In this document: in pieces, positions 1-37,420 of the stretch | Layout of the letters: every line of letters starts with the position of its first letter | Numbering within the stretch: position 1 is the first letter of the stretch | DNA from: a virus | Virus record (IMG/VR): IMGVR_UViG_3300046744_000156 | Coordinates: 1-37,420 of that record | Length of the DNA stretch: 37,420 nt | Strand: one strand, 5' to 3' | The notes under the pieces: model-generated | Databases searched by the model: none | Told to the model about the DNA's origin: nothing | Seen by the model: the letters and a program-made list of their open reading frames with translations, nothing else | Made by a program: the position numbers and the translations under genes

Positions 1-167
1 GGAATGAAGTCAGCATCTGATGGGTCAGGTGTGTGACTTGTAGTTCCATATGCTGATGCAGTGTTTGTTCCATCTGTGCTTTCGCAACGCCAGTGAGCTA
101 CTGTTACTCCATCATCAGATGTGTTTCGCTCTAAGTTAGCGATAGACCATGTGTGTGTTGTTGGCAT
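1..167 (-). CDS. DUF7936-like small protein, N-terminal part (cut by window edge)
   Basis: The first 55 codons are present, opening MPTTHTWSIANLERNTSDDG and running into ...DPSDADFI before the window ends. The start ATG is at 167-165 and is preceded by AAGGAT. The pattern 'TWxIxNLERxxxDGxVxxAHWRxxxxDG' fits, from memory, the DUF7936 family of small phage proteins, whose function is unknown. The matching C-terminal part lies at 37301-37420, at the other end of the window. The gene sits 4 bases downstream of the tail fibre stop, in the late operon. Identification is by remembered pattern, not a search. Confidence 0.75.
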   Translation of the reverse strand, partial: MPTTHTWSIANLERNTSDDGVTVAHWRCESTDGTNTASAYGTTSHTPDPSDADFI

Positions 168-171
168 TTGG

Positions 172-2850
172 TTATCCTTCTAATGCTTCAACTCTTGTTT
201 TAAGAGATGCTATTTCTGTTAATGCTTCTTGTAGTGCGGCTGTGAGTAATGGCACTAACTTGCTTTGGTCTATGCCTTGGTAATCAGGGACACTACGAGT
301 ACCCATGACAGCTTCTGTCACTAAGACGCTCTCTGTTGTCTCAGGTGTAGCTTCTACTGCTTCAGTAAGTACAAGACCTTCATCATCATAAGTAGCTTCA
401 ACAGCTTCAACAGCAGGTGTTACAACGTCCTCATAGACTGCTGGAGTTACTTCGTACTCCTCATCCATCATAGCATCTTTAGTGCCAGTGATTGCTTCTG
501 GTATTACATCAGCAACTTCGTGAGCTAAGAAACCATCAACAGTTTTGTCAGCATCTGCGATGAAATTAAAGCGAGAAGGCTTGAGCTGTTTTAGACGTTC
601 TGTCGCACCTGACAGTTCTACTACGTTTTCCTTCAGTCGGTAGTCTGAAGATGTGAGATAAGCAGTCGCAGAACCATTTGTTGTGATTGCGCCCACAAGA
701 CCGTTGCCATTGTAAAATCGCACTTGATAGTTAGTGGTTGTTGCTGAACCAGCGGACGTGTATAGCTGGTCGGATGAAAACATAAATCCAGATTGTGTGG
801 CACTAGGCGTTGCAGTAGTACCCACAAACAAGTTGCCTGATGAGTTGATGCGCATACGTTCTGATAAAGTTGAACTGCTTGACCCATTTGCGTAAAATGC
901 TAAGTGACCTGCACTATCTCCCGATGATATATACCTTATACCAACAGCAGGATTTGCGTGTCCACCACCTAAAAATGTTATAATTCCATTATCTGTTCCT
1001 GATCCTTCAATTCTTAACTCAGGATTACCAGATGTGGTGCTTTTTAAATGTAGATTTGCACTTGGCGAACTAGTCCCAATACCAACTCGGCCTGACGTGT
1101 CTATAAATATATCATTTTCTCTTACACCGCCGGCTATACCAAGACCTGTAGATTGTACTTGTATTCCACCTGCTTTAGAAGCACCTGAGAAAAACTCTAC
1201 AGTAGTACCAGTACTACCGCTTCTCATAAATCTAGTTTTTGCACCATTCCCAGATACTTCTAGTAGTTGATTTGGCGAACTCGTACCAATCCCAACTCGG
1301 CCTGATGAGTCGATGCGCATCTTTTCGCTTAGTGTAACTGCTGAACCTGCACTACCTGATGCTTGTGAATACCAATGATGTACTCCACCTTCTTGACGAT
1401 AAGCACTAGACTCATCGGTAGTTATATTAGCATATGATCCTGTATCGGCGTCTATATAGATATTGTCAGTAACGAAGTTACCGAATATTCCTCCAGAGCT
1501 ACTTTTTTCTGATATATAAGAACCCTTTTCCCCTAGAAACAACTGTGACCAAGTAGCGTGAGCGTCTGTCGGGGGTGTTCTACCAATCCCAACGTTGCCT
1601 GATGAGTCTATTCGCATACGTTCTGAGGCATTAGTATGAAAAGACATTGAATTATTAATATTGCTATACTGAACACGACCTACATCTTCATCATCTGTGT
1701 CGCCAAATTCAAGATAAGCATAATTATTAGCCGCCGCTGTAAGGCGAAGTTGTGTTCCAGCAGTGGTACTTAAATGTAATAAAGTGTTTGGACTCGACGT
1801 CCCAATACCAACTTTGCCTGACCCATCAATCGCCATATCAACACGATTATCTGTAAAGTTATAGAACCCAAAATAACCAGAAGCATTGACAAATAGCCCG
1901 TAATCATCTGCCCCTACTGTATCAGTAAATCTTAATATTGGGTCTGTGCCAGAAAGATGAAGCATTGCACTAGGCGAACTCGTACCCAACCCAAGTCTTT
2001 CAGCACTCGCATCCCAGAAGAACTTAGCAGTTGTGCCTGTGTCCTCGTAGAAGCTGATGTCGCCTGTTGGCCCATCAATAATCATTCTGTTTATTTCGGT
2101 AGATGCGTCTTGACCTGTGAAATATATACTTCCGTAAGCAGTGTTATTTCGTGCAGATACAATAATTCGGTCTGAAACTTGTCTTACTTGTCCTCGTTGA
2201 TTTGTTCCGTCTGTATCAAAAAAGCTAATTGAAGGAGACGCATCATTGACTGTAATGTCCCCATCAACAGTCAAACCATCAGAAGTCACTGTGCCTGTTA
2301 CGTCAATACCTGTTGATGTTGTGGCTAGTTTGGTTGATGTGTTATGTTTTAACTCAACAGTGCCGCCAGTTCCAGTGTCAGTCATTAAAATGAACTCATT
2401 ACCACCAGCATCTGCCATTGAAATATTACTTGCATAAATAAGTAAATTACCACTTCCAGTTTCTTGAATAACGCTGTTATTTGTTGAGCTGGAATGGTAA
2501 ATCTGTAGGTCAGACCCAGCACCGAATATGGCTTTGTCGTTGTCACCGAATGTTACATTGCCAGTTACGTCTAAAGATGTAAGACTTCCAAGTGACGTAA
2601 TGTTAGTTTGCGCAGCAGTTGTTAATGTACCTGCAATATTTGTAAATGTGCCAGCCGCCGCAGATGCCCCGCCAATGACTGTACCATCAATTGTACCAGA
2701 GTTAATATCAATGCCCGTGACAGGTGTTGTCCCGTCTAGCAGGTTATCAATATTATCTAAGTTAGTGTTTATCTTTGTACCCCAAGTATCTTCAGACGCG
2801 CCAACTTCTGGCTTCACTAAGCTATATGTCGTTGTTGTAGTATCAGCCAT
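172..2850 (-). CDS. Tail fibre with S74 auto-processing chaperone domain
   Basis: An 892-residue tail fibre or spike. The N-terminus ([20 protein letters not shown]) is a common marine phage fibre opening. The middle is built of repeats centred on GIGTSSPxxxLHL, near residues 290, 350, 420, 520 and 590, often preceded by [10 protein letters not shown]. The last 158 residues form a Peptidase_S74 intramolecular chaperone beginning at SDYRLKENV. Ser735 and Lys740 match the known Ser/Lys self-cleavage pair of endosialidase-type chaperones, so the protein probably trimerises and then releases its C-terminus. A repetitive Glu/Val/Thr-rich insertion (about residues 800-850) splits the chaperone. The very end is a coiled coil ([20 protein letters not shown]). 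The start has AGGAG upstream. It should mediate host recognition. Confidence 0.93.
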
Positions 2851-2859
2851 GTTAATCTC

Positions 2860-3960: not shown

Positions 3961-4581
3961 TTAATATGCCCTTATTTTCATACGGCGTCCAGAACCGCCA
4001 AATTTAGCTTTTTCACTTGCTTGATTTATAGCATCAATTGCATTTTGGTACAAAGCTGCCCATACTTGTATTCTAGCATCATCTTTTAGGTATGGCGCAG
4101 AATGTATGAGTGAACCATACAAATATGCGTCGGGGTAATGCTCTAATATCCAGTTTGACGTGTTACTATCAGATAATGCGTCTGTTTTAGCAAAATAATA
4201 CAATTCTGACGTGTATGTGCCATCTGGAACTGGATAAACCTCTAATTCACCTGCTGTAACCGCGTAATATGCTGGTTGCCCGCTTGTGTTTAGGTTTCTA
4301 AACTTACGATCAAGCATTTCTGCTTGCGAAATTAGCTCAAGTGGGCGTGTATCTCCGCTTGTAATGTAAAATCGTATAACTTCAAGCATATCTGCGGGTA
4401 TTGCGCTATATTGCGTATCAATCTCGGCTGTGCTTCGCTTTTCTTGCCGCCAATGACGGATTTGCCTGTTTAAATCTGCTTCTGCGAGTGAGACAAACGT
4501 GGAAGACACAGATGTTAGGTCATCTCGGTTAAGAAAATCTGCAATATTTGTCTTTAATTCTGCATATGTTGTAATTGGCAT
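3961..4581 (-). CDS. Head-tail adaptor protein (SU10-type)
   Basis: A 206-residue protein opening MPITTYAELKTNIADFLNRDDL and continuing with FVSLAEADLNRQIRHW. The middle has 'LELISQAEMLDRKF' and 'AYYAVTAGELEVYPVPDGTYTSELYYFAK', and the end has 'LYGSLIHSAPYLKDDARIQVW'. This is the characteristic pattern of podovirus adaptor proteins of the SU10 type, which form a ring under the portal and receive the tail. Its length fits the family. It lies far from the portal gene on the map, although the two are transcribed in the same direction. The major capsid protein in this window is also SU10-like, which supports the call. Confidence 0.85.
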   Translation of the reverse strand: MPITTYAELKTNIADFLNRDDLTSVSSTFVSLAEADLNRQIRHWRQEKRSTAEIDTQYSAIPADMLEVIRFYITSGDTRPLELISQAEMLDRKFRNLNTSGQPAYYAVTAGELEVYPVPDGTYTSELYYFAKTDALSDSNTSNWILEHYPDAYLYGSLIHSAPYLKDDARIQVWAALYQNAIDAINQASEKAKFGGSGRRMKIRAY

Positions 4582-6911: not shown

Positions 6912-7100
6912 TCACAATTTTTCCATATTAGCTAGTACAACACGCATTCTATCTGATAGCTTCCACGTTCCAGCACGCCACCGAGCAGCAAATTGTGCAT
7001 CTTCCAACGATAGGCCTCGGCTCATATAATTTTTAATCCACTTGTTCATCATTAAATTTTTCATCTTAGGTGACAAATTGTCGAATTTTTTTTTATTCAT
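6912..7100 (-). CDS. Small basic protein coupled to terminase
   Basis: A 62-residue basic protein (MNKKKFDNLSPKMKNLMMNKWIKNYMSRG...) with a predicted helical core and many Lys/Arg/Met. Its ATG overlaps the large terminase stop (ATGA), so it is translated as part of the packaging operon. Function is unknown. Small basic proteins beside terminases could bind DNA, but no motif proves this here. A poly-A-like Lys codon stretch follows the start. Confidence 0.7.
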   Translation of the reverse strand: MNKKKFDNLSPKMKNLMMNKWIKNYMSRGLSLEDAQFAARWRAGTWKLSDRMRVVLANMEKL

Positions 7101-8494
7101 GCAATGCCTTTGAGATTGCGCTTGATAGACCTATTCCAGCTCATGCTTGCGCCAGACAATGCTGTGGCTGCGTCTGATGCCATAGTCAAACATAATGCGT
7201 CAGCCAAGTCAGGCGATTTTAGCCCACGCTTGCGCATCGCGTCCTTACTCTCAGCTTTCATCTTGCCTGCGCTGGTAAATGCGTATCGTATGCCAGTTAG
7301 CTCGGCTAAGAGCTGATCATTTTTTGGCAGTTTGCAGGATCTATCTTCCAGCCACGCTTTTGTCTTAAACCACAACTCGCTGCGCAGGTTCATGTAAGTC
7401 TTGCCCATAGCAGGCGCTTCCCCAACATTAATTCCACGCACTGGAGCGCCCAGCTCACGCAGCCTATCAACTACACCGCCGCCAACACCGATACTATCCA
7501 CAAGTATCTCGTTTGGGCGCAGGCTTGGCGATAAGTTATCATATTCAGCCATGACACGACCCACAGTCTGCATTAAGTCTAATCCTTGCCACGCTTCAAT
7601 ATCCGTCACGACATTGCCATATCTTTTGCATAGCGCAGTCTTATCTGTGCCAAACCTTGCGACGTCCAAGCCCCATATTGGCCTAATGTCAGGCGTAATT
7701 TCAATGTCACGATGTATTGCACTTTCGGCAAGGTGAAACGGAATGATCGTATCGTCGTCTGCTAATGGGAACTCGCCAAGCACACGTATGCGGAATGCAT
7801 TTGATTCTTCGCCATATCTCTCACGCATCTCCTCGACAAACTCTGTCGATACAAGCGGGCTATCGACGCACGACCATCTGCGCGTCCACCAGCTCTTAGA
7901 CATGCGTGTTTGGCTCTCGTAAAATGTGCCTGATGAACGTGTGGGGTTAGATAAAAGCAACGTGGTTGCGCTGTGACCTGACATTGAGCCGGCAGCAGCT
8001 TCAAAAACTTTCTCAGGCACACCAGACGCCTCATCTACCACCAATAAAACATTCTCAGAGTGAACGCCTGCTAGTGCCTCTGGCGTTTCTGCGCGTGACG
8101 TTCTGGCTGATATGAAAGCCTCGGACGCTGCCGACGTTAGCTCGACGCGGTCTGATTTGGTGGTTAGCAATTGCTGTAGGTGGGGTGGCAGCTCGTTAAT
8201 CCAGCGTTTTAGCTCGGCAAACAATGCGTCAAACAATTGGCTGGACGTGGGGGCTGTGACGACGACCTTATTTGGGAAACGCAGTAGGAGAAACCAGAGC
8301 ATAGCCCAAGACGCTGACGTTGACTTCCCTGTACCATGCCCAGACCTGACGGACATTTTACGCTCGCCAGATGCTATGGCATTCAGGAACTCTTCCTGAT
8401 AATCGTATGGCGTAGCGCCCAGCACCTCTTTGACAAATAACACTGGATCGTCCCGATAGCGTAAGACAAACTCTTGTAATGGATTGTCACTCAT
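7097..8494 (-). CDS. terL: Terminase large subunit (ATPase and nuclease)
   Basis: The motor that translocates and cuts phage DNA at the portal. With the chosen start it has 465 residues. The ATPase half shows Walker A SGHGTGKS (51-58), a Walker B stretch NVLLVVDEASG (Asp154, Glu155) and a coupling motif SNPTR near 182. The nuclease half shows GLDVARFGTDKTA (Asp277), LVDSIGVGGG (Asp333) and KSPDLADAL (Asp429, Asp432), the acidic residues expected for an RNase H-like nuclease. The ATG at 8494 is preferred over one 48 bases upstream because GAGG lies 9 bases before it and it overlaps the small-subunit stop by only 8 bases. The gene appears intact. Confidence 0.96.
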   Translation of the reverse strand: MSDNPLQEFVLRYRDDPVLFVKEVLGATPYDYQEEFLNAIASGERKMSVRSGHGTGKSTSASWAMLWFLLLRFPNKVVVTAPTSSQLFDALFAELKRWINELPPHLQQLLTTKSDRVELTSAASEAFISARTSRAETPEALAGVHSENVLLVVDEASGVPEKVFEAAAGSMSGHSATTLLLSNPTRSSGTFYESQTRMSKSWWTRRWSCVDSPLVSTEFVEEMRERYGEESNAFRIRVLGEFPLADDDTIIPFHLAESAIHRDIEITPDIRPIWGLDVARFGTDKTALCKRYGNVVTDIEAWQGLDLMQTVGRVMAEYDNLSPSLRPNEILVDSIGVGGGVVDRLRELGAPVRGINVGEAPAMGKTYMNLRSELWFKTKAWLEDRSCKLPKNDQLLAELTGIRYAFTSAGKMKAESKDAMRKRGLKSPDLADALCLTMASDAATALSGASMSWNRSIKRNLKGIA

Positions 8495-8987
8495 CGGATA
8501 CATCCTCGTAATCTGCGTCAATCGTCTTTGCCTCACGCTCACGATCCTCGCGGTCTATTGCCGCCAAATCGGAATTGACTTTGCGTAGAGCGTCTAAATG
8601 CATGTCACCCACAGATATAGTCACGTTTGTCTGGGGTCTATTCCCGTATCGCTCTTGGTTGTACGAGCCTGCCATGAATTTACGCCACTGCACCTTCTCG
8701 CGCGTGGCGGCTATTTCACTACTTGTCGAACCGCCATCCAAATCATCTACCATTGTTAGGCCTTGTTCTACGAGTGCATCCGCTGCCTCTTGACGGGCTT
8801 TGGCTAGGGCGTTGCCATACTCAGGGATAGTCTTGAGGGATGTGCTAAGATACTGCCGGGAGCAATCATATTCTTTTGCAAGGGCTGTGAGGGTATTGCC
8901 AGAGGCGATCTGCTCAAACAAGTATTCAGCACCGCCTTTGCTTAGTACATCAGCAAGTATTCTTCTGCGTAACGCTTTGCCTGCCAT
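8487..8987 (-). CDS. terS: Terminase small subunit
   Basis: A 166-residue DNA-recognition subunit starting MAGKALRRRILADVLSKGGA. An N-terminal helix-turn-helix-like region (FEQIASGNTLTALAKEYDCS then RQYLSTSLKTIPEYGNALAKAR) is followed by helical segments. Then comes 'VQWRKFMAGSYNQERYGNRP', typical of small terminases that recognise packaging sites, and an acidic tail. The start at 8987 has AGGAG 8 bases upstream; an open frame extends further upstream but overlaps the preceding endonuclease gene. Its position immediately before terL supports the call. Confidence 0.9.
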   Translation of the reverse strand: MAGKALRRRILADVLSKGGAEYLFEQIASGNTLTALAKEYDCSRQYLSTSLKTIPEYGNALAKARQEAADALVEQGLTMVDDLDGGSTSSEIAATREKVQWRKFMAGSYNQERYGNRPQTNVTISVGDMHLDALRKVNSDLAAIDREDREREAKTIDADYEDVSDE

Positions 8988-8997
8988 TGGTGTTCTC

Positions 8998-9555
8998 CTA
9001 TCTCCCGTGATTAGGGTGAAAATTATATTTTTTTTCGGCAGTTTGACGTGCGTTTGCTGCGTCTGTAATATTGTCATAACTTCCAAGAAAAATTGTTTTT
9101 CGATTAACGCCTATTTGTGCTACCCATTTTGATGATGCTTTATTCCAATATACACCAATAATTCCGCTAGTATTAGTGCTAGGGCGTTTTTTATTTTTAC
9201 CATTCTCACGTACACTAACAACTCTCATATTTTTTATGCGGTTATCCAATGGATTCCCATTAATATGATCAATTTGCTTATCAGGCCATTTGCCGTGGTA
9301 TAATGCCCAAGCAACTCTGTGAGCGCCGTAAGCTATCTTGTTGACCCTGCATTTAAAATAACCTCTGCCGTCCTTGTAGGTTGCAGTTTCTTTGCCAGCA
9401 TAGTTATTATTCCAATATTCAATTGATCTTTCAATGTTTGCTGTTTTAGGCGGGTAATGCTCCTTGGTTCTCTTGAGCCAATACATTTTGCCCGTCGTTG
9501 CATCATAACGTATTGTCTTGCGTAAATACTCTACAGTTGGTAATTCTTTTTTCAT
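8998..9555 (-). CDS. HNH homing endonuclease with AP2 DNA-binding domain
   Basis: A 185-residue free-standing endonuclease. The core 'GAHRVAWALYHGKWPDKQIDHINGNPLDNRIKNMRVV' is the HNH_3 signature with the catalytic His and Asn positions present. It is followed by TSGIIGVYWNKASSKWVAQI...FLGSYDNITDAANAR, an AP2-type DNA-binding domain common in phage homing enzymes. The start at 9555 has AAGGAT about 9 bases upstream. An in-frame ATG at 9594 lies inside an 11-bp hairpin and seems less likely. The stop is 11 bases before terS. It may be a mobile gene inserted ahead of the terminases, or may assist packaging; the AP2 domain favours homing. Confidence 0.92.
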   Translation of the reverse strand: MKKELPTVEYLRKTIRYDATTGKMYWLKRTKEHYPPKTANIERSIEYWNNNYAGKETATYKDGRGYFKCRVNKIAYGAHRVAWALYHGKWPDKQIDHINGNPLDNRIKNMRVVSVRENGKNKKRPSTNTSGIIGVYWNKASSKWVAQIGVNRKTIFLGSYDNITDAANARQTAEKKYNFHPNHGR

Positions 9556-9587
9556 CGCGGCTATCCTTTCGTAATTGTTGCCGTGTA

Positions 9588-15429: not shown

Positions 15430-16820
15430 TGGCTAAATTAAAATATGGATCAGTATGCTCTGGCGTGGAAGCCGCCACAGTAGCTTGGCATGACTTAGGC
15501 TTCGAACCGCAATGGTTTAGTGAAGTCGATGCGTTTCCAAGCGCTGTATTACAGCATCACTACCCAAATGTACCAAATCATGGAGACATGACAAAATTTA
15601 AGGAATGGAATAATGACAAAACAATTGACCTTCTCGTTGGCGGGACCCCTTGCCAATCCTTTAGCGTCGCCGGCCTTAGAAAAGGACTTGAAGACCCCAG
15701 AGGAAACCTCATGCTCACCTATCTTAGCATGGCTGAACAACTTAAACCCAAATGGCTTGTCTGGGAAAATGTCCCCGGTGTCTTGTCATCTAACGGAGGA
15801 CGAGATTTTGCAACCTTCCTCACAGCGATGGGGAAAATCGGGTATGGGTTCGCATACAGAGTGTTGGACGCTCAATACTTCGGAGTTCCACAAAGACGCC
15901 GACGTGTGTTCGTTGTCGGATGTCTTGGAGATTGGCGAAGTGCCGCAAGTGTTTTATTTGAGCCAGAAAGCTTGTCAGGGCATCCTGCGCCGAGCAGAGA
16001 AGAGAGGCAAAAAGTTGCCCCAACAGTTAGCACAGGCCCTCCTTTCAGTCGCACAGGAAACTCCAGAGTAGAGGCGGATGCACTTGTAACATATGTATTG
16101 CCGGGAAATTGGATTGGCAGAAAGCCAGAGAATGGCGGCAATCAAGTAGAACCATTCGTAGAGTTATCGCCATGTCAAACTGCAACAGATGTTCATGCTG
16201 TTGCTTACGAACACCACGCACAAGACAGTCGGGTAAAAGAGCTGCCAGAAGTATGTTCCACTGTTACAGCTAAATATGGAACTGGTGGTGGGAATATGCC
16301 AATAGTTGCCACAAGTTATACTTCTAGTAGCTTTGGCGGATACCATGAAGGCGTTGGCACAGTTCGCGCATCAGGTGGAGATTTAGGCGGCGGTAGTGAA
16401 ACTTTAGCTGTAACACCTAAGTCTGGTTCTCATTGGGATGGTGATTTTCCACACCCAACATTAACGCAATCTTCAAAAGGGTCAGGCGGCATTGGTGCGA
16501 GTAATCAAGAGGTATTTGGCGGAAGAGGTGCAGGCTTAGTTGCTAAATGCTTAACAACGAGAACAGGTCAAGCATATAATCCAACCGATGAAACCTTACC
16601 GATTATGAAGCATCCTAGCGCTGTCAGGCGTTTAACTCCAAGAGAATGTGAGCGTTTGCAAGGCTTTAAAGACGATTATACGCAAATATCTTGGCGTGGC
16701 AAAGAACCAGAAGATTGCCCTAATGGTCATAGATATAAAGCTATGGGTAATTCAATGGCTGTTCCAGTTATGCGTTGGATTGGTGAACGCATTCAAATGG
16801 TAGAAGAGGAGAAATTATGA
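15429..16820 (+). CDS. DNA (cytosine-5) methyltransferase
   Basis: A 463-residue enzyme that transfers a methyl group from S-adenosylmethionine to cytosine C5. Motifs in order are I (SVCSGVEAATVAW, 8-20), IV with catalytic Cys75 (GGTPCQSFSVAG), VI (WENVPG, 112-117), VIII (QRRRRVFVVG, 155-164), IX (RRLTPRECERLQGF, about 400) and X (YKAMGNSMAVPV, about 436-447). The region between VIII and IX (about 225 residues) holds a long Gly/Ser-rich target-recognition part including SGSHWDGDFPHPTLTQSS, seen in other phage methyltransferases. No partner restriction enzyme is beside it. The likely role is protecting phage DNA from host restriction. The start at 15429 is favoured over an upstream TTG. Confidence 0.95.
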   Translation: MAKLKYGSVCSGVEAATVAWHDLGFEPQWFSEVDAFPSAVLQHHYPNVPNHGDMTKFKEWNNDKTIDLLVGGTPCQSFSVAGLRKGLEDPRGNLMLTYLSMAEQLKPKWLVWENVPGVLSSNGGRDFATFLTAMGKIGYGFAYRVLDAQYFGVPQRRRRVFVVGCLGDWRSAASVLFEPESLSGHPAPSREERQKVAPTVSTGPPFSRTGNSRVEADALVTYVLPGNWIGRKPENGGNQVEPFVELSPCQTATDVHAVAYEHHAQDSRVKELPEVCSTVTAKYGTGGGNMPIVATSYTSSSFGGYHEGVGTVRASGGDLGGGSETLAVTPKSGSHWDGDFPHPTLTQSSKGSGGIGASNQEVFGGRGAGLVAKCLTTRTGQAYNPTDETLPIMKHPSAVRRLTPRECERLQGFKDDYTQISWRGKEPEDCPNGHRYKAMGNSMAVPVMRWIGERIQMVEEEKL

Positions 16821-17041
16821 CATTCTACACAACACTCATTGTAACCTACGTCATTGGCGGCGTAGAGTTAAGCAATGACACAATGTATCGCAGCGCAATG
16901 GAATGTGGCGATGCATTGCCGGCAGCATATGCACCATATGCACATTTAGATAGCATGGCGCAGTGCATTGAGACAAACTATGTCAGCTCTGCAAAAATCA
17001 CATCAAAGCCAATGCTTAGACCGAAAGGATTATCGCTATGA
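16817..17041 (+). CDS. Small protein with hydrophobic N-terminus
   Basis: A 74-residue protein overlapping the methyltransferase stop (ATGA). The first 15 residues (MTFYTTLIVTYVIGG) are hydrophobic but not a classical signal peptide. The middle has two Cys (CGDALPAAYAPYAHLD and AQC) and the C-terminus is short and basic. Function is unknown. It may be a small exported or membrane-associated protein with one disulfide. Confidence 0.65.
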   Translation: MTFYTTLIVTYVIGGVELSNDTMYRSAMECGDALPAAYAPYAHLDSMAQCIETNYVSSAKITSKPMLRPKGLSL

Positions 17042-17187
17042 AAGCATTAACTAAAGAAAAATTGGAATCCATCATGGATGATGTTTTTGCTAGGCACGTT
17101 AAATTAATACAAAAGCCAGAGCGTACAGTAATGCCCCGGCTCGATGATAATGGTAAATTTATATATAATGAGGAACAAAATGATTGA
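17038..17187 (+). CDS. 49-residue hypothetical protein
   Basis: A short charged protein (MKALTKEKLESIMDDVFARH then 'VKLIQKPERTVMPRLDDNGKF...'). Its ATG overlaps the stop of the previous gene (ATGA), and AAAGGAT lies 6-12 bases upstream as a ribosome binding site. There is no membrane segment or known motif. Support is the operon packing alone. Confidence 0.6.
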   Translation: MKALTKEKLESIMDDVFARHVKLIQKPERTVMPRLDDNGKFIYNEEQND

Positions 17188-17198
17188 GGAGAATATTA

Positions 17199-17405
17199 AT
17201 GGCAATGTCAGCGAAAGACGTCCACAAGGCAGTAAGACGCCTGCAAAAAATGAACCACGAAATAATCAAGGATATGAAAACGCCAGACCCCACACGCAAT
17301 CGTGGTTACTACCTCTGGTTCATGCAAGAACAGGGCGCGATACTGGACAATTTGGAGCAGCGCCTTACCCTTATGCGACGTTCGAAAAAACCAGAGAAGC
17401 CATGA
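17199..17405 (+). CDS. 68-residue basic hypothetical protein
   Basis: A helical, basic protein starting MAMSAKDVHKAVRRLQKMNH and ending LMRRSKKPEKP, with a central 'DPTRNRGYYLWFMQEQGAIL'. The ATG at 17199 is preferred over an upstream TTG because AGGAG lies 8 bases before it. Its stop overlaps the next ATG (ATGA). No family is recognised; a nucleic-acid-binding role would fit the charge but is not shown. Confidence 0.6.
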   Translation: MAMSAKDVHKAVRRLQKMNHEIIKDMKTPDPTRNRGYYLWFMQEQGAILDNLEQRLTLMRRSKKPEKP

Positions 17406-17824
17406 AAGGCCAATCAAAGAGTGTGCGATACGAAATGATGTACGCGCATTTACTTCACACGTTTGAAAAAGAACAAATTAGGCTTGGTTTGCGCAATAAA
17501 ATTAACAAGACTTTTGAGAGGCCACGCCAGATTACAGTTAATAAAGCCTCACATAAAAACTTTGTGTCTGATCACGATCTTAGAAAAATTAAGCCCATAC
17601 CTCAAAAGAAGTATGACGCTATACTAAAGCATATGAAGAGTTACAAAAGATACACTACCACTATGATAGCTCTGAGCAGCGGTATTGGCGTATCAGATAT
17701 AGCTTGGACGCTTAACGTGATGTATCGTCAAAAATTAGTTGATCGTGCTTACGAGAAAACAACGCCAATTATTGGCAACGCTGGCGCTAAGTCTTTGCGT
17801 TACGTTTACTTCAAACTAAAATAA
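17402..17824 (+). CDS. Basic protein with winged-helix-like C-terminus
   Basis: A 140-residue basic protein, last of the plus-strand operon. The start at 17402 overlaps the previous stop (ATGA); the open frame extends upstream but only as a shadow of two other genes. Residues about 75-140 ('YKRYTTTMIALSSGIGVSDIAWTLNVMYRQKLVDRAYEK' ... RYVYFKLK) have the order helix, turn, helix, strand-strand expected of a winged helix. It may therefore regulate transcription of this phage or the host. Domain assignment is by eye only. Confidence 0.65.
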   Translation: MKGQSKSVRYEMMYAHLLHTFEKEQIRLGLRNKINKTFERPRQITVNKASHKNFVSDHDLRKIKPIPQKKYDAILKHMKSYKRYTTTMIALSSGIGVSDIAWTLNVMYRQKLVDRAYEKTTPIIGNAGAKSLRYVYFKLK

Positions 17825-17904: not shown

Positions 17905-18294
17905 TTAATCTACAAAACTGTTTATTACTTGATTTAATAATTTTTCTTCATCTACAAACTGTTCTGGGTACAAACGAGTTGATGTTTTTTTGATTACTGG
18001 ATCATCACCTCTAGCCCAATATATTTTCTTAATATCATATGCCACCAAAGCATAAACATCAGACTTTTTATCCCTGACAGGCTGCGTATTCCATCTATAC
18101 TGTGTCAAGCTGCCTGATTTTCTGCTGGCTGTTTTAACTTGTAGGGTCAGCAATTTCCCGCTTGGCGTCTTCAAATATGCATCGTCAATTTCGTGTTGGA
18201 CTAAGATGCATGAAATGCCAGCGAATGATAATCTTGATAGAGCTAGAAATTCACCAGCTCTACCAATGTTATTATTATGCGTTGAGCCACTCAT
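17905..18294 (-). CDS. PD-(D/E)XK endonuclease-like protein
   Basis: A 129-residue protein starting MSGSTHNNNIGRAGEFLALS. Its motif order is Glu15 in GRAGEF, Asp37-Asp38 in EIDDAYL, and LQVK (Gln52-Val-Lys54) followed by TASRK. This is the PD-(D/E)XK fold as in group I intron-type endonucleases (PDDEXK_5). The start at 18294 overlaps the endolysin 3' end by 20 bases and has only a weak ribosome site; two further in-frame ATGs upstream would give up to 146 residues. It ends the late strand, behind the lysis genes. It may be a homing or anti-competitor nuclease. Confidence 0.75.
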   Translation of the reverse strand: MSGSTHNNNIGRAGEFLALSRLSFAGISCILVQHEIDDAYLKTPSGKLLTLQVKTASRKSGSLTQYRWNTQPVRDKKSDVYALVAYDIKKIYWARGDDPVIKKTSTRLYPEQFVDEEKLLNQVINSFVD

Positions 18295-18892
18295 AAATTT
18301 TGTTTGTCTCGCCTGTCCGGTCAACAATGCCATGTGTTCCGCCATTGACTCGGCGAGTTATCTTTAAAATTGTCTCGTCGTTCACACCATCATCTGCAAT
18401 GTCAAACAACTTGTTTTTCTGGAAGAACCATAATGCAGTATCAAATGCATAATCTGTGGATACCAAATCTGGGTCTGTCATAATCTCAGGCAGCCCCATG
18501 TCAGAGCTGAATAACCTATAATTATTCTTCCCGGTCAATTGTAAAAATCCGCGACCAATGAAAGTCTCACCATCAGACTCAGTGTTATTGCCCATACGCC
18601 CGCCATAGACCTTGTTAGCTAGAGCTGATGGATTGCGCGAGTAACCTTCGCAAGACGCCAAATCAGGGAAGCGGCTAGGCCACACACGCATCATGCTTTC
18701 AGCACTATAGTTTAAATTTTCCCTTGTATGACGCCAGTGACCGCTTTCGTGACTTGCCTGCCCCATCAAATGCGCAGCTCTCTCATTAGATAGCTCGTAA
18801 TGTTCTGCGATGGCTTTTGCCGTGTTCTTGCCAAAATGCCCATCAGCGCCTGCCCCACATCTTTCTTGGAGCTTTTTCATTGCTTCACTCAT
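18275..18892 (-). CDS. Endolysin, glycoside hydrolase 19 (chitinase/lysozyme-like)
   Basis: A 205-residue peptidoglycan hydrolase. 'GADGHFGKNTAKAIAEHYELS' leads into AHLMGQASHESGHW (catalytic Glu49), RENLNYSAESM, ALANKVYGGRMGN, GETFIGRGFLQLTGKNNY and a Trp/Phe-rich end. This is the GH19 layout used by many Gram-negative phages. There is no signal peptide, so it should need the neighbouring holin to reach the cell wall. The start at 18892 lies just after the stop of a 48-residue gene; a longer frame upstream is a shadow of that gene. Confidence 0.92.
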   Translation of the reverse strand: MSEAMKKLQERCGAGADGHFGKNTAKAIAEHYELSNERAAHLMGQASHESGHWRHTRENLNYSAESMMRVWPSRFPDLASCEGYSRNPSALANKVYGGRMGNNTESDGETFIGRGFLQLTGKNNYRLFSSDMGLPEIMTDPDLVSTDYAFDTALWFFQKNKLFDIADDGVNDETILKITRRVNGGTHGIVDRTGETNKIYEWLNA

Positions 18893-18893
18893 A

Positions 18894-19040
18894 TTATTTC
18901 TTCTTTTTCTTGGCAGTTTTAGCTGCTTTTTTAAATGCGTTTGCAGTTGGTGCGCCTTTTGTACCGGGCTTACGCATCTTCTCGCCGCTACCAGCCGCAA
19001 TGCGCTTACGTTTCTTTGCAATATTTCTGTAAAGTGACAT
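18894..19040 (-). CDS. Highly basic 48-residue protein
   Basis: A Lys/Arg-rich peptide starting MSLYRNIAKKRKRIAAGSGE, then 'KMRKPGTKGAPTANAFKKAAKTAKKKKK'. AGGAG precedes its ATG and its stop is followed after one base by the endolysin ATG. Very similar short proteins recur in marine phages, as I remember them, usually near lysis or structural genes. Function is unknown. The charge suggests binding to nucleic acid or to membranes. Confidence 0.8.
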   Translation of the reverse strand: MSLYRNIAKKRKRIAAGSGEKMRKPGTKGAPTANAFKKAAKTAKKKKK

Positions 19041-19051
19041 AAATTTATCTC

Positions 19052-19456
19052 CTATTTTTCAATTTTTTTCAGTTTTTCTATCGACCTCATGCCGCCCAAT
19101 CCTAACATCCCCATCATCACAGTCATTAGGCTGCCCATATCAAACTCTGGTAGCTCTGGTATGTCAATGCCAGCAGCAGTTACACCAAACACGATCAATG
19201 GCTGTAATACAAAGTGGTAAGCAAAAGCTACGCCACATACCCATCCTATAAATGGACGCCATCCGCCCTTGAATATAGAGCCAGATGCAGCTTCAGCTTT
19301 GTTTATCTCTAGTTGACCCATCAAAGCTTGCTGGGCGTGGTTATCTGACATTGTGGCTATTTCGTGAGCCAATGCAGCCTTCTGATCTTTATCTTCTATA
19401 ACTTTATCTAGCAGGCCAGTGACAGGGCCTATTAGATTATTAACGAGACTCATCAT
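19052..19456 (-). CDS. Holin, three-transmembrane GTA type
   Basis: A 134-residue membrane protein with an N-terminal amphipathic region (LIGPVTGLLDKVIEDKDQKA). A conserved GGWRPFIGWVCGVAFAYHF segment follows, then two more hydrophobic stretches (LQPLIVFGVTAAG and 'SLMTVMMGMLGLGGMRSIEK'). This matches the 3-TM holin family first named from gene transfer agents. It should form the inner-membrane lesions that release the GH19 endolysin. The start overlaps the EF-hand gene stop by 17 bases; a second ATG follows immediately, so 19453 is also possible. Confidence 0.9.
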   Translation of the reverse strand: MMSLVNNLIGPVTGLLDKVIEDKDQKAALAHEIATMSDNHAQQALMGQLEINKAEAASGSIFKGGWRPFIGWVCGVAFAYHFVLQPLIVFGVTAAGIDIPELPEFDMGSLMTVMMGMLGLGGMRSIEKLKKIEK

Positions 19457-23772: not shown

Positions 23773-24720
23773 TTATGAATCAGTGTTGTCAGCGATCATG
23801 CCGTTGGCTGCTTCATTTTTTGCACAAAGTGTTAGCTCTGTTACAACTTGACGTGTTGTGTTGTCGCCAGTTTTTGCTAGTGCAACATTCTTTGTTCCAC
23901 GTAGTGTAGCAACTTCCCACATATTGTCTTGCATGATGAAAACATCGCGTGATCTGTTTTCTCTTGATGGTGCAAACTCAATTGAACCCCAAGGTGTAAC
24001 ATATACAGCTAATGACTTGATAACTTTTTCATCGCCAGCTTGGACTGCTGAACGCTGATTATTGTTACCAGTGAAGCCTAACGCAATGTTCATTTGGAAC
24101 GCAGATAAGTACACTGTGTCTGGTTTACCGCCAGCTACCCAGATTGACTGCATAACAGTATCAAATTTAGCTTGTGTAAACGCAGTTTTTGAACCATCAG
24201 TACGAGCGTTTGAGCCTGTACCATTAGCGTTTGCTCCGCCAGAACCTTTAACAACATTTGATGTTAGCCATACTGGTGCGCCTGCAAGCTCGCGTGCAGC
24301 AGTTGCAGAACCAGCAACTTTTGCATTGTTATCGAATAGAGCTTTTTCTATATCGAGCTTCTGCTCCTTTGCGATTTTTAAGGTTTGGTAAGCAATTTCC
24401 TTAGACCGGCCTGCTTTGTTTAGGCCTTCATCAGTGTCAGGAACTACAACTGCGTTTTTGAAAATCTGTGTATAGTTTCCTAAACGTGTTGTTGCTGTAC
24501 GTGCTTCAGCAGTAGTTGCATCGCCTTCAATATGAGCGTTAGCAGCAGATGCACGCAATGAATCAGTTTGCCACTCAGTTAAAGTGTTGCGCGCTGTTGT
24601 TTTACCACACTTTGAAAGAAATATAGTTTCTTCAGGTGAGATGTTATAGATAATATCCGATAAATCTTCACGGATACCGACAGCATCATAGCTGTCAAAT
24701 GTGTTGGATGGTTGTGCCAT
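23773..24720 (-). CDS. Major capsid protein, SU10 type
   Basis: A 315-residue HK97-fold head protein. It opens MAQPSNTFDSYDAVGIREDL, then SDIIYNISPEETIFLSKCGK and 'TEWQTDSLRASAANAHIEGD', and has the mid-region 'AGRSKEIAYQTLKIAKEQKLDIEKALFDNN'. The C-terminal part is 'ENRSRDVFIMQDNMWEVATLRGTKNVALAKTGD'. This is the DUF5309/SU10_MHP signature. The gene follows the scaffold by 33 bases and has AAAGGG-type sequence upstream. It should build the icosahedral or elongated head; length fits the family. Confidence 0.93.
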   Translation of the reverse strand: MAQPSNTFDSYDAVGIREDLSDIIYNISPEETIFLSKCGKTTARNTLTEWQTDSLRASAANAHIEGDATTAEARTATTRLGNYTQIFKNAVVVPDTDEGLNKAGRSKEIAYQTLKIAKEQKLDIEKALFDNNAKVAGSATAARELAGAPVWLTSNVVKGSGGANANGTGSNARTDGSKTAFTQAKFDTVMQSIWVAGGKPDTVYLSAFQMNIALGFTGNNNQRSAVQAGDEKVIKSLAVYVTPWGSIEFAPSRENRSRDVFIMQDNMWEVATLRGTKNVALAKTGDNTTRQVVTELTLCAKNEAANGMIADNTDS

Positions 24721-24753: not shown

Positions 24754-25755
24754 CTAGCTATCACCAATTATCAAGTTCAATGCATCATCGATTGAACCTG
24801 TCTTCTGCAAGCGCTGTTGCGCTTTTTTACGAGTTGCAGCATTCCCATCTTGTCTTTTCTTAGCACCAGCTTTCACTACAGGGCGAGCTTTATTGCTCTT
24901 AGTCTGTACTGATTTCTTCTTAGCCACCAACTCACGATATTTGCGCGCATCATTTAATGCTCTCACATATCTAGCATCTGTCACTGCTTGCATTTCTTCT
25001 GCGGAAAATCCGTAAGAAACGCCAGTTTCAACAAGTGCATCTTTAAGTCCTTGACCCTTCTTAGGATCAACTATTTCAGGGATGTACTCTTGCAGAACTT
25101 GTGCTTGCTCTTGAAGGTAGGCTTGGTGAGCCTCTTGTTGAGCTTGCATACGTTGCCTTTGTACGCCTTGGAGTTGGAACACATTTTGGTCATACTGTGT
25201 CTTCGCCTCATCGTATTTGAGCTTTTCTTCCATGTATCCTATCGGATCACTTTCAAATAACTCTCTCGATGGTGGGGTCGGAGCTTGTAAACCACCTTGT
25301 GTAGCTTGCTGGTGCAACTGGACAATTTGTGCCTGCTGCTGTTGCAATACGGCCTGTTGCTGTTCGAGATTCTTTCGTACCTCGGCAGCCTCTTGAAACC
25401 GCTTATTAATTGCCGCTTGTCCCGCAGCAGATTGCTTGAGCTGATCCAGTGTCCAATGCTCTTCTTTTCCATCAACTTTAATGGGGATGAGCTTGGTGTC
25501 TTCAGTAGCCTCTACAGGGTCTTCGTCGTCAACTTCCACATCTTCAAGATCATATTCTTCATCATCTTGTTCGCTGGATGCTTCTTCTTCAGCGTCATCG
25601 TCGCTTTCGGCTACAGCCTCAATCTCCTCACCCTGATCGTCATCTTCAGGTTCAGTGATCTCATCTACAGCTTCGCTAAGATTATCGCCACCAGTATCTT
25701 CTGGGGCGGGTGATAATAAGCTTTCTACAGCTTGGTCTAGGCTAGTCGATTCCAT
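24754..25755 (-). CDS. Capsid scaffolding protein
   Basis: A 333-residue protein with an acidic N-terminal third (EDDDQGEEIEAVAESDDDAE) and a Gln-rich coiled-coil centre (about 125-225). The Lys/Arg-rich C-terminal third includes 'KKSVQTKSNKARPVVKAGAKKRQDG' and ends in a helix (SIDDALNLIIGDS). Acid-to-base polarity, coiled coil and position between portal and major capsid genes are typical of scaffolds that direct capsid assembly and leave before DNA packaging. No protease domain is visible. Confidence 0.9.
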   Translation of the reverse strand: MESTSLDQAVESLLSPAPEDTGGDNLSEAVDEITEPEDDDQGEEIEAVAESDDDAEEEASSEQDDEEYDLEDVEVDDEDPVEATEDTKLIPIKVDGKEEHWTLDQLKQSAAGQAAINKRFQEAAEVRKNLEQQQAVLQQQQAQIVQLHQQATQGGLQAPTPPSRELFESDPIGYMEEKLKYDEAKTQYDQNVFQLQGVQRQRMQAQQEAHQAYLQEQAQVLQEYIPEIVDPKKGQGLKDALVETGVSYGFSAEEMQAVTDARYVRALNDARKYRELVAKKKSVQTKSNKARPVVKAGAKKRQDGNAATRKKAQQRLQKTGSIDDALNLIIGDS

Positions 25756-25760: not shown

Positions 25761-26003
25761 CTAGTTCCTTTGTTTGCGATCTAAAATTATCTCTGCTTGT
25801 ATTGAAGCGTCGAGTTTAATTTCGATCTGGTTCACTGCACGCAGTATTGCGTGAGCATCTTCACGTACATCAACGTCTGATGCACTACTGTCAGCGAATA
25901 ACCTTAGTTGGTCATCGCGTACCTGTTGCATAAAGTTCTTGAAGGCTGTGTCATTTTTCAGACGTTTAGCCTCTTCTGCATTTATGCGTATTTCTGTTGT
26001 CAT
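25761..26003 (-). CDS. Small helical protein between portal and scaffold
   Basis: An 80-residue protein (MTTEIRINAEEAKRLKNDTA then FKNFMQQVRDDQLRLFADSS), all helical and charged. Its ATG overlaps the portal stop (ATGA), so it is coupled to portal synthesis. Similar tiny genes stand at this place in other marine podophages. A head-assembly helper role is plausible; no motif shows it. Confidence 0.7.
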   Translation of the reverse strand: MTTEIRINAEEAKRLKNDTAFKNFMQQVRDDQLRLFADSSASDVDVREDAHAILRAVNQIEIKLDASIQAEIILDRKQRN

Positions 26004-28084
26004 TGCTGTGGATTACCTTGCGCCATCTCACCAATCATTCTAACTTTATCTTGCTCCGCTTGTATGCGAGCAACATCAACTGATGTTCCATATTCACCAT
26101 ACACTTTAGCTGCGTCAACTAGCAAGTCTTGCGCCATCTGATCTCGCTTTAAATCATTGTCTGCGGCGGCTTTCTGCGCGTCTAATTGCATCTTGGCGGC
26201 GTCTGATTGCATCTTAACTTGTGCTTTCATTTGCTCTGCCTGCAAGAACGCAGCATTCGGGTCTTGCCCTTCGCCTTGTTGCGCTTGTGCTTGTTGTTGT
26301 TGCTGTAGCATTTGAGCTTCGATTTCTTCAGTGATTGGCGCAAAATATCTGTCAGCATTTCGTATGCCAGATACAGCTAATTGGTCTGCCAGAGTGTTGC
26401 GGATATTAGTCATGCTAACCAAACCATTCATTGGGCCGTATGTCTGATAAACCATAGTCTGCATTTGCAGCGCTTGGCTAAGTGCCATGGCTTTCTCTTC
26501 CTCACGTCCAGTTCCCAATCCAACATTAATGCTAACGTCCATTGAGCTGTCCCATACTCTAGGATCAACTGGCACAAATGTGCCGTTCATACGCATCATT
26601 TGCTCTTCGTCTACATTCTTGTTTGATAAGCGTAACATTATGCCAAACAAGTCTCTCATGCCATCTGCTAGGTTACGCACCATAACTTCAACTTGCCCAG
26701 CCGCAGCTTGCACAGTAGCTTGCACAGCCGCTTTAGTTGTAGATTGCATTGCATCTGGGTCTAATCCCATTGAAGCCCGTGAGACGCCTGTTTTAGTCTC
26801 TACAAGGCCATCTAGGTAAGTTAATGCGCTTAACGTCTGCCCAGCAGTAAATGGCACTGACAAGTCTTGTACCGCACCAGCTTGGCGCATTCTTACGATT
26901 GCACCAATCTCGTTGTTTAGCACGTCATCAATGTTAGCTGCGCCTTCTATGACCGCCAAACGTGGATTATTCGTCATTGCTACGTTATCTAAGATTGAGC
27001 GTAGTATTGATGTGGCTGCGTCTTGGTCATCCATAACTATTTCAGCTAGTGAACGTCCATAGAATGTGTGTGGTTCTGGGTCTATCTCAAACTTAGCAAA
27101 GGGTAACTCATCGCATGGTTCAAAGTCTAGCATCTCATATGATGTACCACCGCAGGTAATCTTGTGTAATACGGGTATGCCAGTGCCATCAGCATCTATT
27201 CGCATATATGCTTCTGTCACAGTTACATTCTTCATTGACGGGTCTTGCTCATCTTCATCAGATGTATCCAAGCTGTATCCACGTCTCTCATGCACTTCAG
27301 CTTCAGTCATTTCTGACCCATTATCAAAGCTGTTTAAATCTAATACAACTTCAGGGTCATACCCCATTGCAATTAAATCGCCTGCGCGCACTTCAGTTCT
27401 ATGAGCCACCAAATAAGCATCTTTCAGATTGCGTGCATCTCGGTTAATGAAGAACTCTTCGGGTGGCACGCTTTCTATGCATAATTCGCCACGTTCTTGT
27501 TGGCGGCTGATCTTTATGCTGTGCGATGGTGTTTCTATTTCCATGCCCATCTCATCCATTGAGATGCTCATTTCTGTAGTTTGCTCTAGCACGCTTACTT
27601 CATCATCATCTGTAAGATATGCAAGTTCATCATCATTTAAGTCTGTGAATGTGTATATTTCTGCTTCTGGATATGTCATCCAGTATGCTTTTACGATACC
27701 TTGTTTCTTCACAAGTGCATCTTGGAATGCATCATTAATTACGCGGTATCCGTTTAAACGTGTAAACTCATGGTGCATAAATTCAGTGGCTTGATCTGCC
27801 ATTGCTACATCTTCTGGGCCATGTGGTACAAATTCTACTGGCTTTGCCGTACTTAGGAATATACGCATTAAGCTTGGTTTTACAGCACGTACGGTATCAC
27901 GTACTTTTGTGGCTACAACTTTACTTCTGCCATCTTCATAGCCAAGGTCAACTTCACCATCATAGTATCGCTGCGCCTTAATTCTATCTTGGCTTATTTC
28001 GCTTTCAACAAAATCTACTGCGCTGGCAATAGCGTCTTGGACAATGCCTTCGACTTCTCTACGTGATTTTGGTTTTAATTCCAT
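26000..28084 (-). CDS. Portal protein
   Basis: A 694-residue P22-like portal that forms the dodecameric ring through which DNA enters and leaves the head. Telling segments are the start MELKPKSRREVEGIVQDAIA, 'DYVEGRSKVVATKVRDTVRAVKPSLMRIF'-type helices near 50-80, and 'FFINRDARNLKDAYLVAHRTEV' near 210. Others are 'DELPFAKFEIDPEPHTFYGRSLAEIVMDDQD' near 325 and a helical C-terminus rich in Gln and Met (LQQQQQAQAQQGEGQDPNAA). Length fits the family. Translation is coupled to the small downstream gene. Confidence 0.93.
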   Translation of the reverse strand: MELKPKSRREVEGIVQDAIASAVDFVESEISQDRIKAQRYYDGEVDLGYEDGRSKVVATKVRDTVRAVKPSLMRIFLSTAKPVEFVPHGPEDVAMADQATEFMHHEFTRLNGYRVINDAFQDALVKKQGIVKAYWMTYPEAEIYTFTDLNDDELAYLTDDDEVSVLEQTTEMSISMDEMGMEIETPSHSIKISRQQERGELCIESVPPEEFFINRDARNLKDAYLVAHRTEVRAGDLIAMGYDPEVVLDLNSFDNGSEMTEAEVHERRGYSLDTSDEDEQDPSMKNVTVTEAYMRIDADGTGIPVLHKITCGGTSYEMLDFEPCDELPFAKFEIDPEPHTFYGRSLAEIVMDDQDAATSILRSILDNVAMTNNPRLAVIEGAANIDDVLNNEIGAIVRMRQAGAVQDLSVPFTAGQTLSALTYLDGLVETKTGVSRASMGLDPDAMQSTTKAAVQATVQAAAGQVEVMVRNLADGMRDLFGIMLRLSNKNVDEEQMMRMNGTFVPVDPRVWDSSMDVSINVGLGTGREEEKAMALSQALQMQTMVYQTYGPMNGLVSMTNIRNTLADQLAVSGIRNADRYFAPITEEIEAQMLQQQQQAQAQQGEGQDPNAAFLQAEQMKAQVKMQSDAAKMQLDAQKAAADNDLKRDQMAQDLLVDAAKVYGEYGTSVDVARIQAEQDKVRMIGEMAQGNPQQ

Positions 28085-34818: not shown

Positions 34819-35473
34819 GCGTCCTCGTAATTGCTAGTGTTGAAGATGGTATTGCTGGCACTGGAGATGATGCTGCTGTGTAATTTAAAAATCCAGATGT
34901 GCTATCTATCATATAATTTACTTCTAAATAATCACCCGCCGCCACAGTAAATATCTGAGTACGTGATATAACAACTGTAGCATTATTTTGATGTAATGCA
35001 GTTGTCATAGCACCGTTTGTCGATGCTGTGCCATTTATGCTAGGCCAAAAGTAAAAGTGTACTGTGCTTGCGCTTGTTGATGATATTTGCGCGGAAAATG
35101 ATAATACATATTCTCCAGCCTCTTCGAATACAATTCTGCTTGCTGGCGTACCTTGTGTAATCTTTGAATTGCCAGATGGTGCATCATAGGTCAGCTTGTA
35201 TGCCGTATTTGCTAGGGCTGGCGTAACATCTGATGTTTTAGTGAAGTTAGCGTGTCCGCCTTCTACTACAATTTGACGCCACTCTCCGCCTTTACTTACA
35301 ACTGGGTATTCATATGATCTGTCCCACATAAGCGTGCCATCGTCTGCTGCGCTTTCGCTACCAGTTTGTTGAACAAGAGGTGATCTTGTTTGGGACATGA
35401 ATTGCATGAGGCGTCTGCCCCATGTTTTCCAATCATCTCCATATGGTTCTGGTGGCCTTTGCTGTTGCGTCAT
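34811..35473 (-). CDS. Tail protein with C-terminal beta (C1q/TNF-like) domain
   Basis: A 220-residue protein. After MTQQQRPPEPYGDDWKTWGR it carries a strand-rich domain (about 90-215): ASRIVFEEAGEYVLSFSAQI, 'STVHFYFWPSINGTA', 'TQIFTVAAGDYLEVNYMIDSTSG'. This resembles the jelly-roll folds used in phage tail and receptor-binding proteins. It overlaps the next gene by 8 bases and the previous stop by 4, which fixes it in the tail block. Domain type is inferred by resemblance. Confidence 0.7.
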   Translation of the reverse strand: MTQQQRPPEPYGDDWKTWGRRLMQFMSQTRSPLVQQTGSESAADDGTLMWDRSYEYPVVSKGGEWRQIVVEGGHANFTKTSDVTPALANTAYKLTYDAPSGNSKITQGTPASRIVFEEAGEYVLSFSAQISSTSASTVHFYFWPSINGTASTNGAMTTALHQNNATVVISRTQIFTVAAGDYLEVNYMIDSTSGFLNYTAASSPVPAIPSSTLAITRTHG

Positions 35474-36951
35474 CTTCTACCGCCTGCAACAACATCTAAT
35501 CTATTTACGCCAACACGCCAATCTCCTAGCTCAACTGCGCTTACTCGCATTCTCAATTGTCTGCCAGTAAATCTCAATGATGTAGGTGTAGACATAGAAT
35601 ATGGCCCGTAATCACGTTCAGTTCCATTTGGATAGAAGCGTGTCTTAAATGTTACATTCACGTCACCTTGTGTTCTTTCATCTGGTAGCATTTCAGTTAC
35701 AGATGCTACTGTATCTCCAGACCCAAGCATAATAGGGCCAGTTTCAGCAAATGGTGTTAATGTTCCGTAATCAAAGCCAATTTCATGCTCGTAAATCTTA
35801 TAGTCGGATGCATCTGCCCATATTGGCTTTCTAAATGCACCAGCGTCAACTCCAGCCGTTCTTGCTAATTCGCCAATATACCATGTGTTTTCAATATAGT
35901 TAAACGCAACGTATCTATCATTTTCTGTAGATGCAGCAGACGGGTAAAACCAGAATATCTCTCCGAAGTTACTGTTGGTCACAGCAAATGCTTTACTTAT
36001 TTGCGCTCGGTTCATATCGCTAAACACGTAATCCGCAACTTCACTTTGCACCTCTTGCACAGCTCCACCTGTATAGCTGTAGAATGCGTGAGCGCCCATC
36101 CAGAATGCACCAGCGTCAACTGCGGCTATTGCTTGGTTTGCTGCTAAACCACATGATGAGCCAACACGCTCAATGCCGTAAACATATGGTGGGCCTACAT
36201 AATTTGCTACGTGTGCATCTGTGCTGGTTAAAATAAGCGTTTGACCACGTACTTTAATGCCCGCCATGATTTGACCGCTTGTGTTTAACTCTAAATCACC
36301 AGCTTCATTTGTAGCTGCGGGCGTCCAGGTTGTATTGTCCTCACGATCAGACCATTGCACTTTGCGCGGGTTTCCACCCGCACCAAGAGCAAATAAGAAA
36401 CGCTCTTCTGTGACGACTAATGATCTATTGCTTGTTGGAGCGTTAGATATAACTGCGGCTGGTGTACCTGTAGCCAATGCCCACTCGTATAATTTACCAT
36501 CATCTTCTGTGCATCCTACAAGGTTTTCGCCCCACGTATCTAATGCCCATGATGTTGCTGGCTGTATTCTAACTGTATCTGGACGCTCAATACCATAAGC
36601 ATAACTTCCGTAAAAGCTTCCGCTATATCCAGTAAATGCTAATGCATCTTCTCTGCCCGCAGTAAATGACGTTGGAGTTATGTCGTGTCTTACGCCTGTT
36701 GCTGTCCAAGTGTATAATTTATTATATGTGCCGCCAGTAATCCAACGATCATTGTCATTATCTATCCAAGATAACATTCCACGTATTGGAGCTGTGGATG
36801 CATTATCTGAACGAACACGCCAGCCACCCATAGGGCGCATGGTATTATCTATCCATCGAATTAAATTTGCATCACGCCAACGACCATTAGATTGCAGGTC
36901 AGTTCCGTTTCGGTAAACTCCAGAAGGAATATCTAGTGGAATAAGTGGCAT
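35470..36951 (-). CDS. Large tail protein, propeller-like (possible gp10-type hub)
   Basis: A 493-residue beta-rich protein starting MPLIPLDIPSGVYRNGTDLQ, then 'SNGRWRDANLIRWIDNTMRPMGGWR'. Repeated units near 55-90, 100-140 and 180-300 ('GMLSWIDNDNDRWITGGTYNKLY', 'RFLFALGAGGNPRKVQWSDRED') fit a beta-propeller. The ending 'SLRFTGRQLRMRVSAVELGDWRVGVNRLDVVAGGRR' is typical of podophage tail-hub or DNA-stabilisation proteins. GAGG lies 6 bases before the start. It opens the tail block after the terminator-like hairpin at 37006-37037. The exact assignment to the P22 gp10 type is tentative. Confidence 0.75.
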   Translation of the reverse strand: MPLIPLDIPSGVYRNGTDLQSNGRWRDANLIRWIDNTMRPMGGWRVRSDNASTAPIRGMLSWIDNDNDRWITGGTYNKLYTWTATGVRHDITPTSFTAGREDALAFTGYSGSFYGSYAYGIERPDTVRIQPATSWALDTWGENLVGCTEDDGKLYEWALATGTPAAVISNAPTSNRSLVVTEERFLFALGAGGNPRKVQWSDREDNTTWTPAATNEAGDLELNTSGQIMAGIKVRGQTLILTSTDAHVANYVGPPYVYGIERVGSSCGLAANQAIAAVDAGAFWMGAHAFYSYTGGAVQEVQSEVADYVFSDMNRAQISKAFAVTNSNFGEIFWFYPSAASTENDRYVAFNYIENTWYIGELARTAGVDAGAFRKPIWADASDYKIYEHEIGFDYGTLTPFAETGPIMLGSGDTVASVTEMLPDERTQGDVNVTFKTRFYPNGTERDYGPYSMSTPTSLRFTGRQLRMRVSAVELGDWRVGVNRLDVVAGGRR

Positions 36952-37046: not shown

Positions 37047-37274
37047 TTATTCTGCAGCTTCTTCAGCTTCAATTATTGCTTCATCTAAAGATACACGTAG
37101 CATCTTTGTGAAAGCATCTCTGCCAACTTTAAGTTGGTCTAAGTTAAATTCTGCCGAACCAATCTTTTGTTGCAATGAATTGATATGATTAATCATAACT
37201 TTCTGCGCATCAGTGAGTTGGTCTTCAGTGTAGTCTTTGTCATCAATCGTAATAACCTTTTTATCTTCAGCCAT
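37047..37274 (-). CDS. DUF6447 protein
   Basis: A 75-residue acidic helical protein (MAEDKKVITIDDKDYTEDQL, 'TDAQKVMINHINSLQQKIGSAEFNLDQLKVGRDAFTKML', EEAAE). The opening 'KKVxTIDDKDYTEDQLTDxxK' followed by a coiled coil is, from memory, the DUF6447 family found in marine phages. AAGGAG is well placed before the start. Function is unknown. It lies between the DUF7936-like gene and a terminator at the far end of the fibre gene cluster. Confidence 0.85.
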   Translation of the reverse strand: MAEDKKVITIDDKDYTEDQLTDAQKVMINHINSLQQKIGSAEFNLDQLKVGRDAFTKMLRVSLDEAIIEAEEAAE

Positions 37275-37300
37275 TTTGATCTCCTTTAGTTAAGTTAAAA

Positions 37301-37420
37301 TTACCAAGGCATCCCAGATGTGGATGTTGGGTTTGCAAGTTCAGCTATCTTAGCATCATTTGCCGCTTCAGTATCAGCTTTGACTACTTGTTCGTGTACC
37401 CATTCTAATACGTTTGCCTC
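37301..37420 (-). CDS. DUF7936-like small protein, C-terminal part (cut by window edge)
   Basis: The last 39 codons of a frame that enters from the window end: EANVLEWVHEQVVKADTEAA, then NDAKIAELANPTSTSGMPW and a TAA stop. 'ANVLxWV...' and the ending GxPW are typical ends of DUF7936-like proteins, matching the beginning at 1-167. Frame arithmetic shows that direct joining of base 37420 to base 1 would shift the frame, so about 1 plus 3n bases are missing between them. Confidence 0.75.
   Translation of the reverse strand, partial: EANVLEWVHEQVVKADTEAANDAKIAELANPTSTSGMPW

Follow-up and report, generated by a model that had tools for sequence, protein, structure and literature searches.

The window, that is, the whole stretch of DNA that was analysed, is the complete public record IMGVR_UViG_3300046744_000156 (37,420 bp). 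Its beginning (1..167, minus strand) holds the N-terminal part of a gene of the DUF7936 family, which starts with an ATG at 167..165, reads through 55 codons to base 3 and runs off the window start with the bases CC (positions 2-1). The C-terminal part of such a gene lies at the opposite extreme (37301..37420, minus strand); it is in frame from 37420, where GAG encodes Glu, and runs off the window end, its 39 codons being followed by a TAA stop at 37303..37301. The N-terminal piece matches the Pfam profile PF25590 (DUF7936) with an E value of 2.6e-14 (54.2 bits) at profile positions 2-55, and the C-terminal piece with an E value of 1.6e-5 (26 bits) at positions 62-103, the two matches being successive and free of overlap. 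When the pieces were joined through five unknown residues and compared with this profile, a check close to the alignment with DUF7936 members that a preliminary description of this DNA had proposed, the resulting protein gave one full-length match (88 bits, E value 8e-25, positions 2-103 of 103), above the gathering cut-off of the profile (27 bits). A comparison of 21 diverse relatives, with identities as low as 35%, gave 13 invariant columns; the window has all of them, eight in the N-terminal and five in the C-terminal piece, and the latter is 72-97% identical in most relatives. On the evidence of the sequence, the two ends of the record are the halves of one DUF7936 gene, in agreement with the preliminary description, which had placed the start and the end of one such gene on the same strand and in the right order.

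Scanning IMG/VR with the N-terminal piece returned 67 loci, 59 of which match both pieces up to their inner edges (57 of the 59 are complete and contain 39 distinct gene sequences). In every one of these 59 relatives the spacing between Ile55 and the Glu codon that opens the C-terminal piece is exactly 18 nt. Since the window already contains CC from the first of these six codons, 16 bases are absent, corresponding to positions 168-183 of the DUF7936 open reading frame. This number equals 1+3×5 and thus falls within the earlier forecast of 1+3n missing bases with n of about 3 to 8. We estimate from it a complete map of ~37,436 bp. When the join was modelled with 16 N and flanks of 3 kb, blastn gave single alignments spanning it in 70 loci (some contigs contribute more than one), with identity of up to 96%; that of locus L003 extends over 3,183 bases without a gap. 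No IMG/VR contig matches the exact sequence of the window on both sides of the join, a result that carries no weight because the collection may omit the population from which the record comes.

Upstream and downstream neighbours also connect through the join. The tail fibre gene (172..2850, minus strand; PHROG tail fibre families, best E value 8.7e-75) immediately precedes DUF7936 once the ends are joined, as it does in relatives. Directly downstream is a gene for a 75-amino-acid protein, here J75 (37047..37274, minus strand; phrog_21153, E value 1.4e-17), which occupies this place with 97-100% identity in most relatives of the same backbone. Next comes K493 (35470..36951, minus strand; phrog_3287, E value 2.5e-86), a 493-amino-acid virion structural or stabilization-type protein, 72-100% identical across the join in relatives. 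The order fibre-DUF7936-J75-K493-L220-M120, whose genes sit at opposite ends of the window, is contiguous in about two dozen relatives as far as their contigs reach, and in most of these the non-fibre genes of the block are 85-100% identical.

Followed through the join on the minus strand, the genes are those for the small terminase (TerS, 8487..9086; phrog_1482, E value 2.1e-9; start codon not settled), the large terminase (TerL, 7097..8542; phrog_2, E value 9e-43), the SU10/P22-type neck adaptor (3961..4581; PF24175, E value 1.4e-36), a head protein, the fibre, DUF7936, internal and tail structural proteins, the portal (26000..28084; PF23899 SU10_portal, E value 1.7e-190), the head scaffolding protein (24754..25755; phrog_3927, E value 1.2e-47), the major capsid protein (23773..24720; phrog_1328, E value 5e-78), the holin (19052..19456; PF11351 GTA_holin_3TM, E value 2.9e-24, and phrog_3427, E value 1.3e-33) and a GH19-like endolysin (18275..19021; phrog_181, E value 1.6e-47, and PF00182, E value 1.2e-8). 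These late genes all lie on one strand, which bears out the expectation that the late genes run unbroken from the small terminase via the join to the lysis genes.

Three further features of the gene map were observed. An HNH endonuclease gene (8998-9594, minus strand), found in some relatives only, immediately precedes the small terminase gene, with whose listed frame it overlaps. At 15417-17824, three genes including one for a DNA methyltransferase are on the plus strand of an otherwise minus-strand genome, an orientation kept in several of the closest full-length relatives. Finally, an open frame of 354 amino acids (2528-3592, plus strand) is antisense to a conserved 239-amino-acid gene and the fibre start; it has no Pfam or PHROG match and is probably due to chance.

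The relatives indicate how the two ends of the record are to be understood. Seven of the near-full-length relatives fetched are contigs of 35-38 kb with near-identical overlapping ends of 109-249 bp, giving circles of 35.4-37.7 kb. The overlaps are 144 bp in G001 (97.9% identity), 194 bp in G002 (99.5%), 215 bp in G019 (99.1%) and 249 bp in G024 (99.6%), and are exact in G017 (109 bp), G026 and G027 (127 bp each). The cut is not in one place in these contigs: it lies within M120 in G001, within S80 in G017, and within the scaffold gene in G019 and G026. Of the contig ends of relatives, 140 could be mapped to the window, and a single one of them lies no more than 200 nt from either window end. 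We therefore consider it very probable that the sequence map is circular and that the cut is an edge of the assembly and no physical end, because the relatives are circular and cut elsewhere, cross the join intact and do not have their ends clustered here. This support is independent of the window's own assembly, and the preliminary description, which had suggested a nearly complete phage genome cut at an assembly edge, is upheld by it. The same description had called the genome circular or circularly permuted; the adjacency of the ends in relatives supports this for the map, but adjacency alone does not extend to permutation or circularity of the packaged DNA.

The contig does stop where it stops, and one could take the window ends for the true physical ends of packaged DNA. 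The probability of this is very small, as such ends would split an intact conserved gene with the loss of 16 bases, and relatives read straight across the join and do not stop there. It is also very improbable that a longer genome has two paralogous DUF7936 genes, each supplying one of the window ends, and that the ends match by coincidence. DUF7936 and its 75-amino-acid neighbour do occur in unrelated phages, which implies a cassette that moves between genomes; however, each full-length relative fetched has at most one copy of DUF7936, relatives that share the backbone are circles of 35-38 kb, and the two flanks of the join align with a single unbroken stretch in relatives, at DNA identities of up to 96%. 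One public contig, G015 (IMGVR_UViG_3300025570_000015, 61,867 bp; L240-L243), has two each of the terminase, portal and K493 genes; about 24 kb of it match G016 and are joined within S80 to the whole G017 circle, and it looks like an assembly chimera.

With the cut taken as an assembly edge, the record is best explained as the genome of a single uncultured marine podovirus, its sequence map circular and ~37,436 bp long, assembled as a contig that starts and stops inside the DUF7936 gene, between the tail fibre gene and the 75-amino-acid gene. A terminal overlap is the usual hallmark of a closed contig, but it is not strictly required. Clean circular contigs of relatives have an overlap of k-mer size, whereas this record has no terminal overlap and 16 bases are absent instead; within the record, no exact or inexact repeat is common to both window ends, which share no significant similarity. 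As a possible cause of the break we considered a SNP bubble, given that the gap begins and ends at a wobble position. A bubble would leave a gap edged by variable bases, and this explanation was not supported, because positions 168 and 183 of the reading frame vary little in relatives, where 171 and 173 vary most. In practice, the record is usable as an essentially complete genome (~99.96% of the map), the split DUF7936 gene should be restored as one gene in the annotation, and the window ends should not be read as packaging ends. That a record should split a gene in this way is ordinary for phage contigs and tells little that is new about biology.

How the DNA would be packaged is a separate matter. 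We favour, with considerable reserve, headful packaging from concatemers, by which the packaged DNA would be linear, terminally redundant and circularly permuted. TerL has weak matches to the solved terminase 8dkr and to the 'Gene 2 protein' chains 5c10/4idh (Sf6 gp2), and is 28.5% identical to P1 PacB. Both Sf6 gp2 and P1 PacB belong to headful packagers. A fair chance, short of an even one, is left to a linear genome with fixed ends and a short direct terminal repeat elsewhere in the map. Such a repeat would collapse in short-read assembly, closing the map and leaving the position of the cut arbitrary; a direct terminal repeat that exceeds the k-mer of the assembler in length also closes the short-read assembly graph, and circular graphs look the same for repeat and permutation. 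The match of TerL to headful packagers speaks against fixed ends, although at low identity and not decisively. Equally short of decisive is the distribution of contig ends: no cluster of the kind expected for a fixed terminus was seen at any map position, no 20-nt stretch containing at least 4 of the 140 mappable ends of relatives. The sequence of TerL cannot decide the packaging mode, because LUZ24 and phage Delta have P22-like terminases and yet carry direct terminal repeats of 182-184 bp (PMC8540360).

The confidently predicted structure of the DUF7936 protein (pLDDT 91.8) consists of three strands followed by two helices, and the cut in the record falls in the linker between the sheet and the helices. 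No solved fold matches the model at E <= 0.001, and among predicted viral structures only DUF7936 or unnamed proteins match at this threshold; the family name was not found in the literature searched. Several phage families have DUF7936 immediately or shortly after a gene for a tail fibre or a tail structural protein. The block of fibre, DUF7936 and J75 (1-2850 plus 37047-37420 in the window; 33987-36664 in L073, 494-4554 in L281 and 697-4604 in L285) is also present in unrelated marine phages, namely CRP-5 of Zobellviridae, and fibre with DUF7936 in CRP-7 and CRP-345. Several relatives of the same backbone (G017, OANV2) are without DUF7936. In most relatives with neighbouring genes at 88-99% identity, the tail fibre is only ~30-60% identical, and for this reason we regard it as a fast-changing or exchanged part of the genome. 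The position of DUF7936 behind fibre or tail genes in several families, together with the 84% identity of J75 in CRP-5, suggests that fibre, DUF7936 and J75 may form an exchanged fibre cassette, which we offer as a lead and not as a result. The fuller proposal, in which the three genes would be a unit exchanged among marine podoviruses of unrelated lineages (OANV2-like, Zobellviridae and others) and DUF7936 would be a fibre partner or assembly factor, is speculative and, at present, rather unlikely. If the cassette reading is true, recombination and sequence variety at this place would account for the assembly break at DUF7936.

Judged by its genes, this uncultured phage is a podovirus close to OANV2 and phiM5. 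A neck and portal of P22/SU10 type and the podovirus late-gene order of the OANV2 group are present (PF23899, E value 1.7e-190; PF24175, E value 1.4e-36). The closest isolate is Octadecabacter Antarctic DB virus 2 (OANV2, MW805364), a podovirus of 39,241 bp that was deposited as circular and whose neck was classed as P22-type (PMC9239159). It shares the late order TerS-TerL-neck-fibre-K493-portal-scaffold-capsid, with identities to the window of 60% for its K493 orthologue, 69% for the capsid protein and 58% for the neck adaptor; however, it has neither DUF7936 nor J75 between fibre and K493, its early region differs, and identity elsewhere is low. Among uncultured relatives, G001 (IMGVR_UViG_3300021378_000069, 37,846 bp; circular map 37,702 bp) has the same gene order including fibre-DUF7936-J75-K493, with the join intact, and is 99% identical in the portal and 97% in TerL, but its contig is cut in M120 and identity falls to 39% in the tail fibre. 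Sinorhizobium phage phiM5 and other LUZ24-like podoviruses resemble the window in TerL (54% identity) and K493 (32%), and differ in their size of 44 kb and in the order of their hosts, as well as, for LUZ24, in the direct terminal repeats (PMC8540360). LUZ24 and Delta are more distant relatives by their structural genes, the link to the LUZ24 type being through the 493-amino-acid protein. Roseobacter phage CRP-5 (Zobellviridae, MK613347) belongs to another family with another backbone, where the terminase comes after DUF7936 and J75, and yet has fibre, DUF7936 and J75 in the same order, its DUF7936 protein being 62% identical to the joined protein over 100 of 100 residues.
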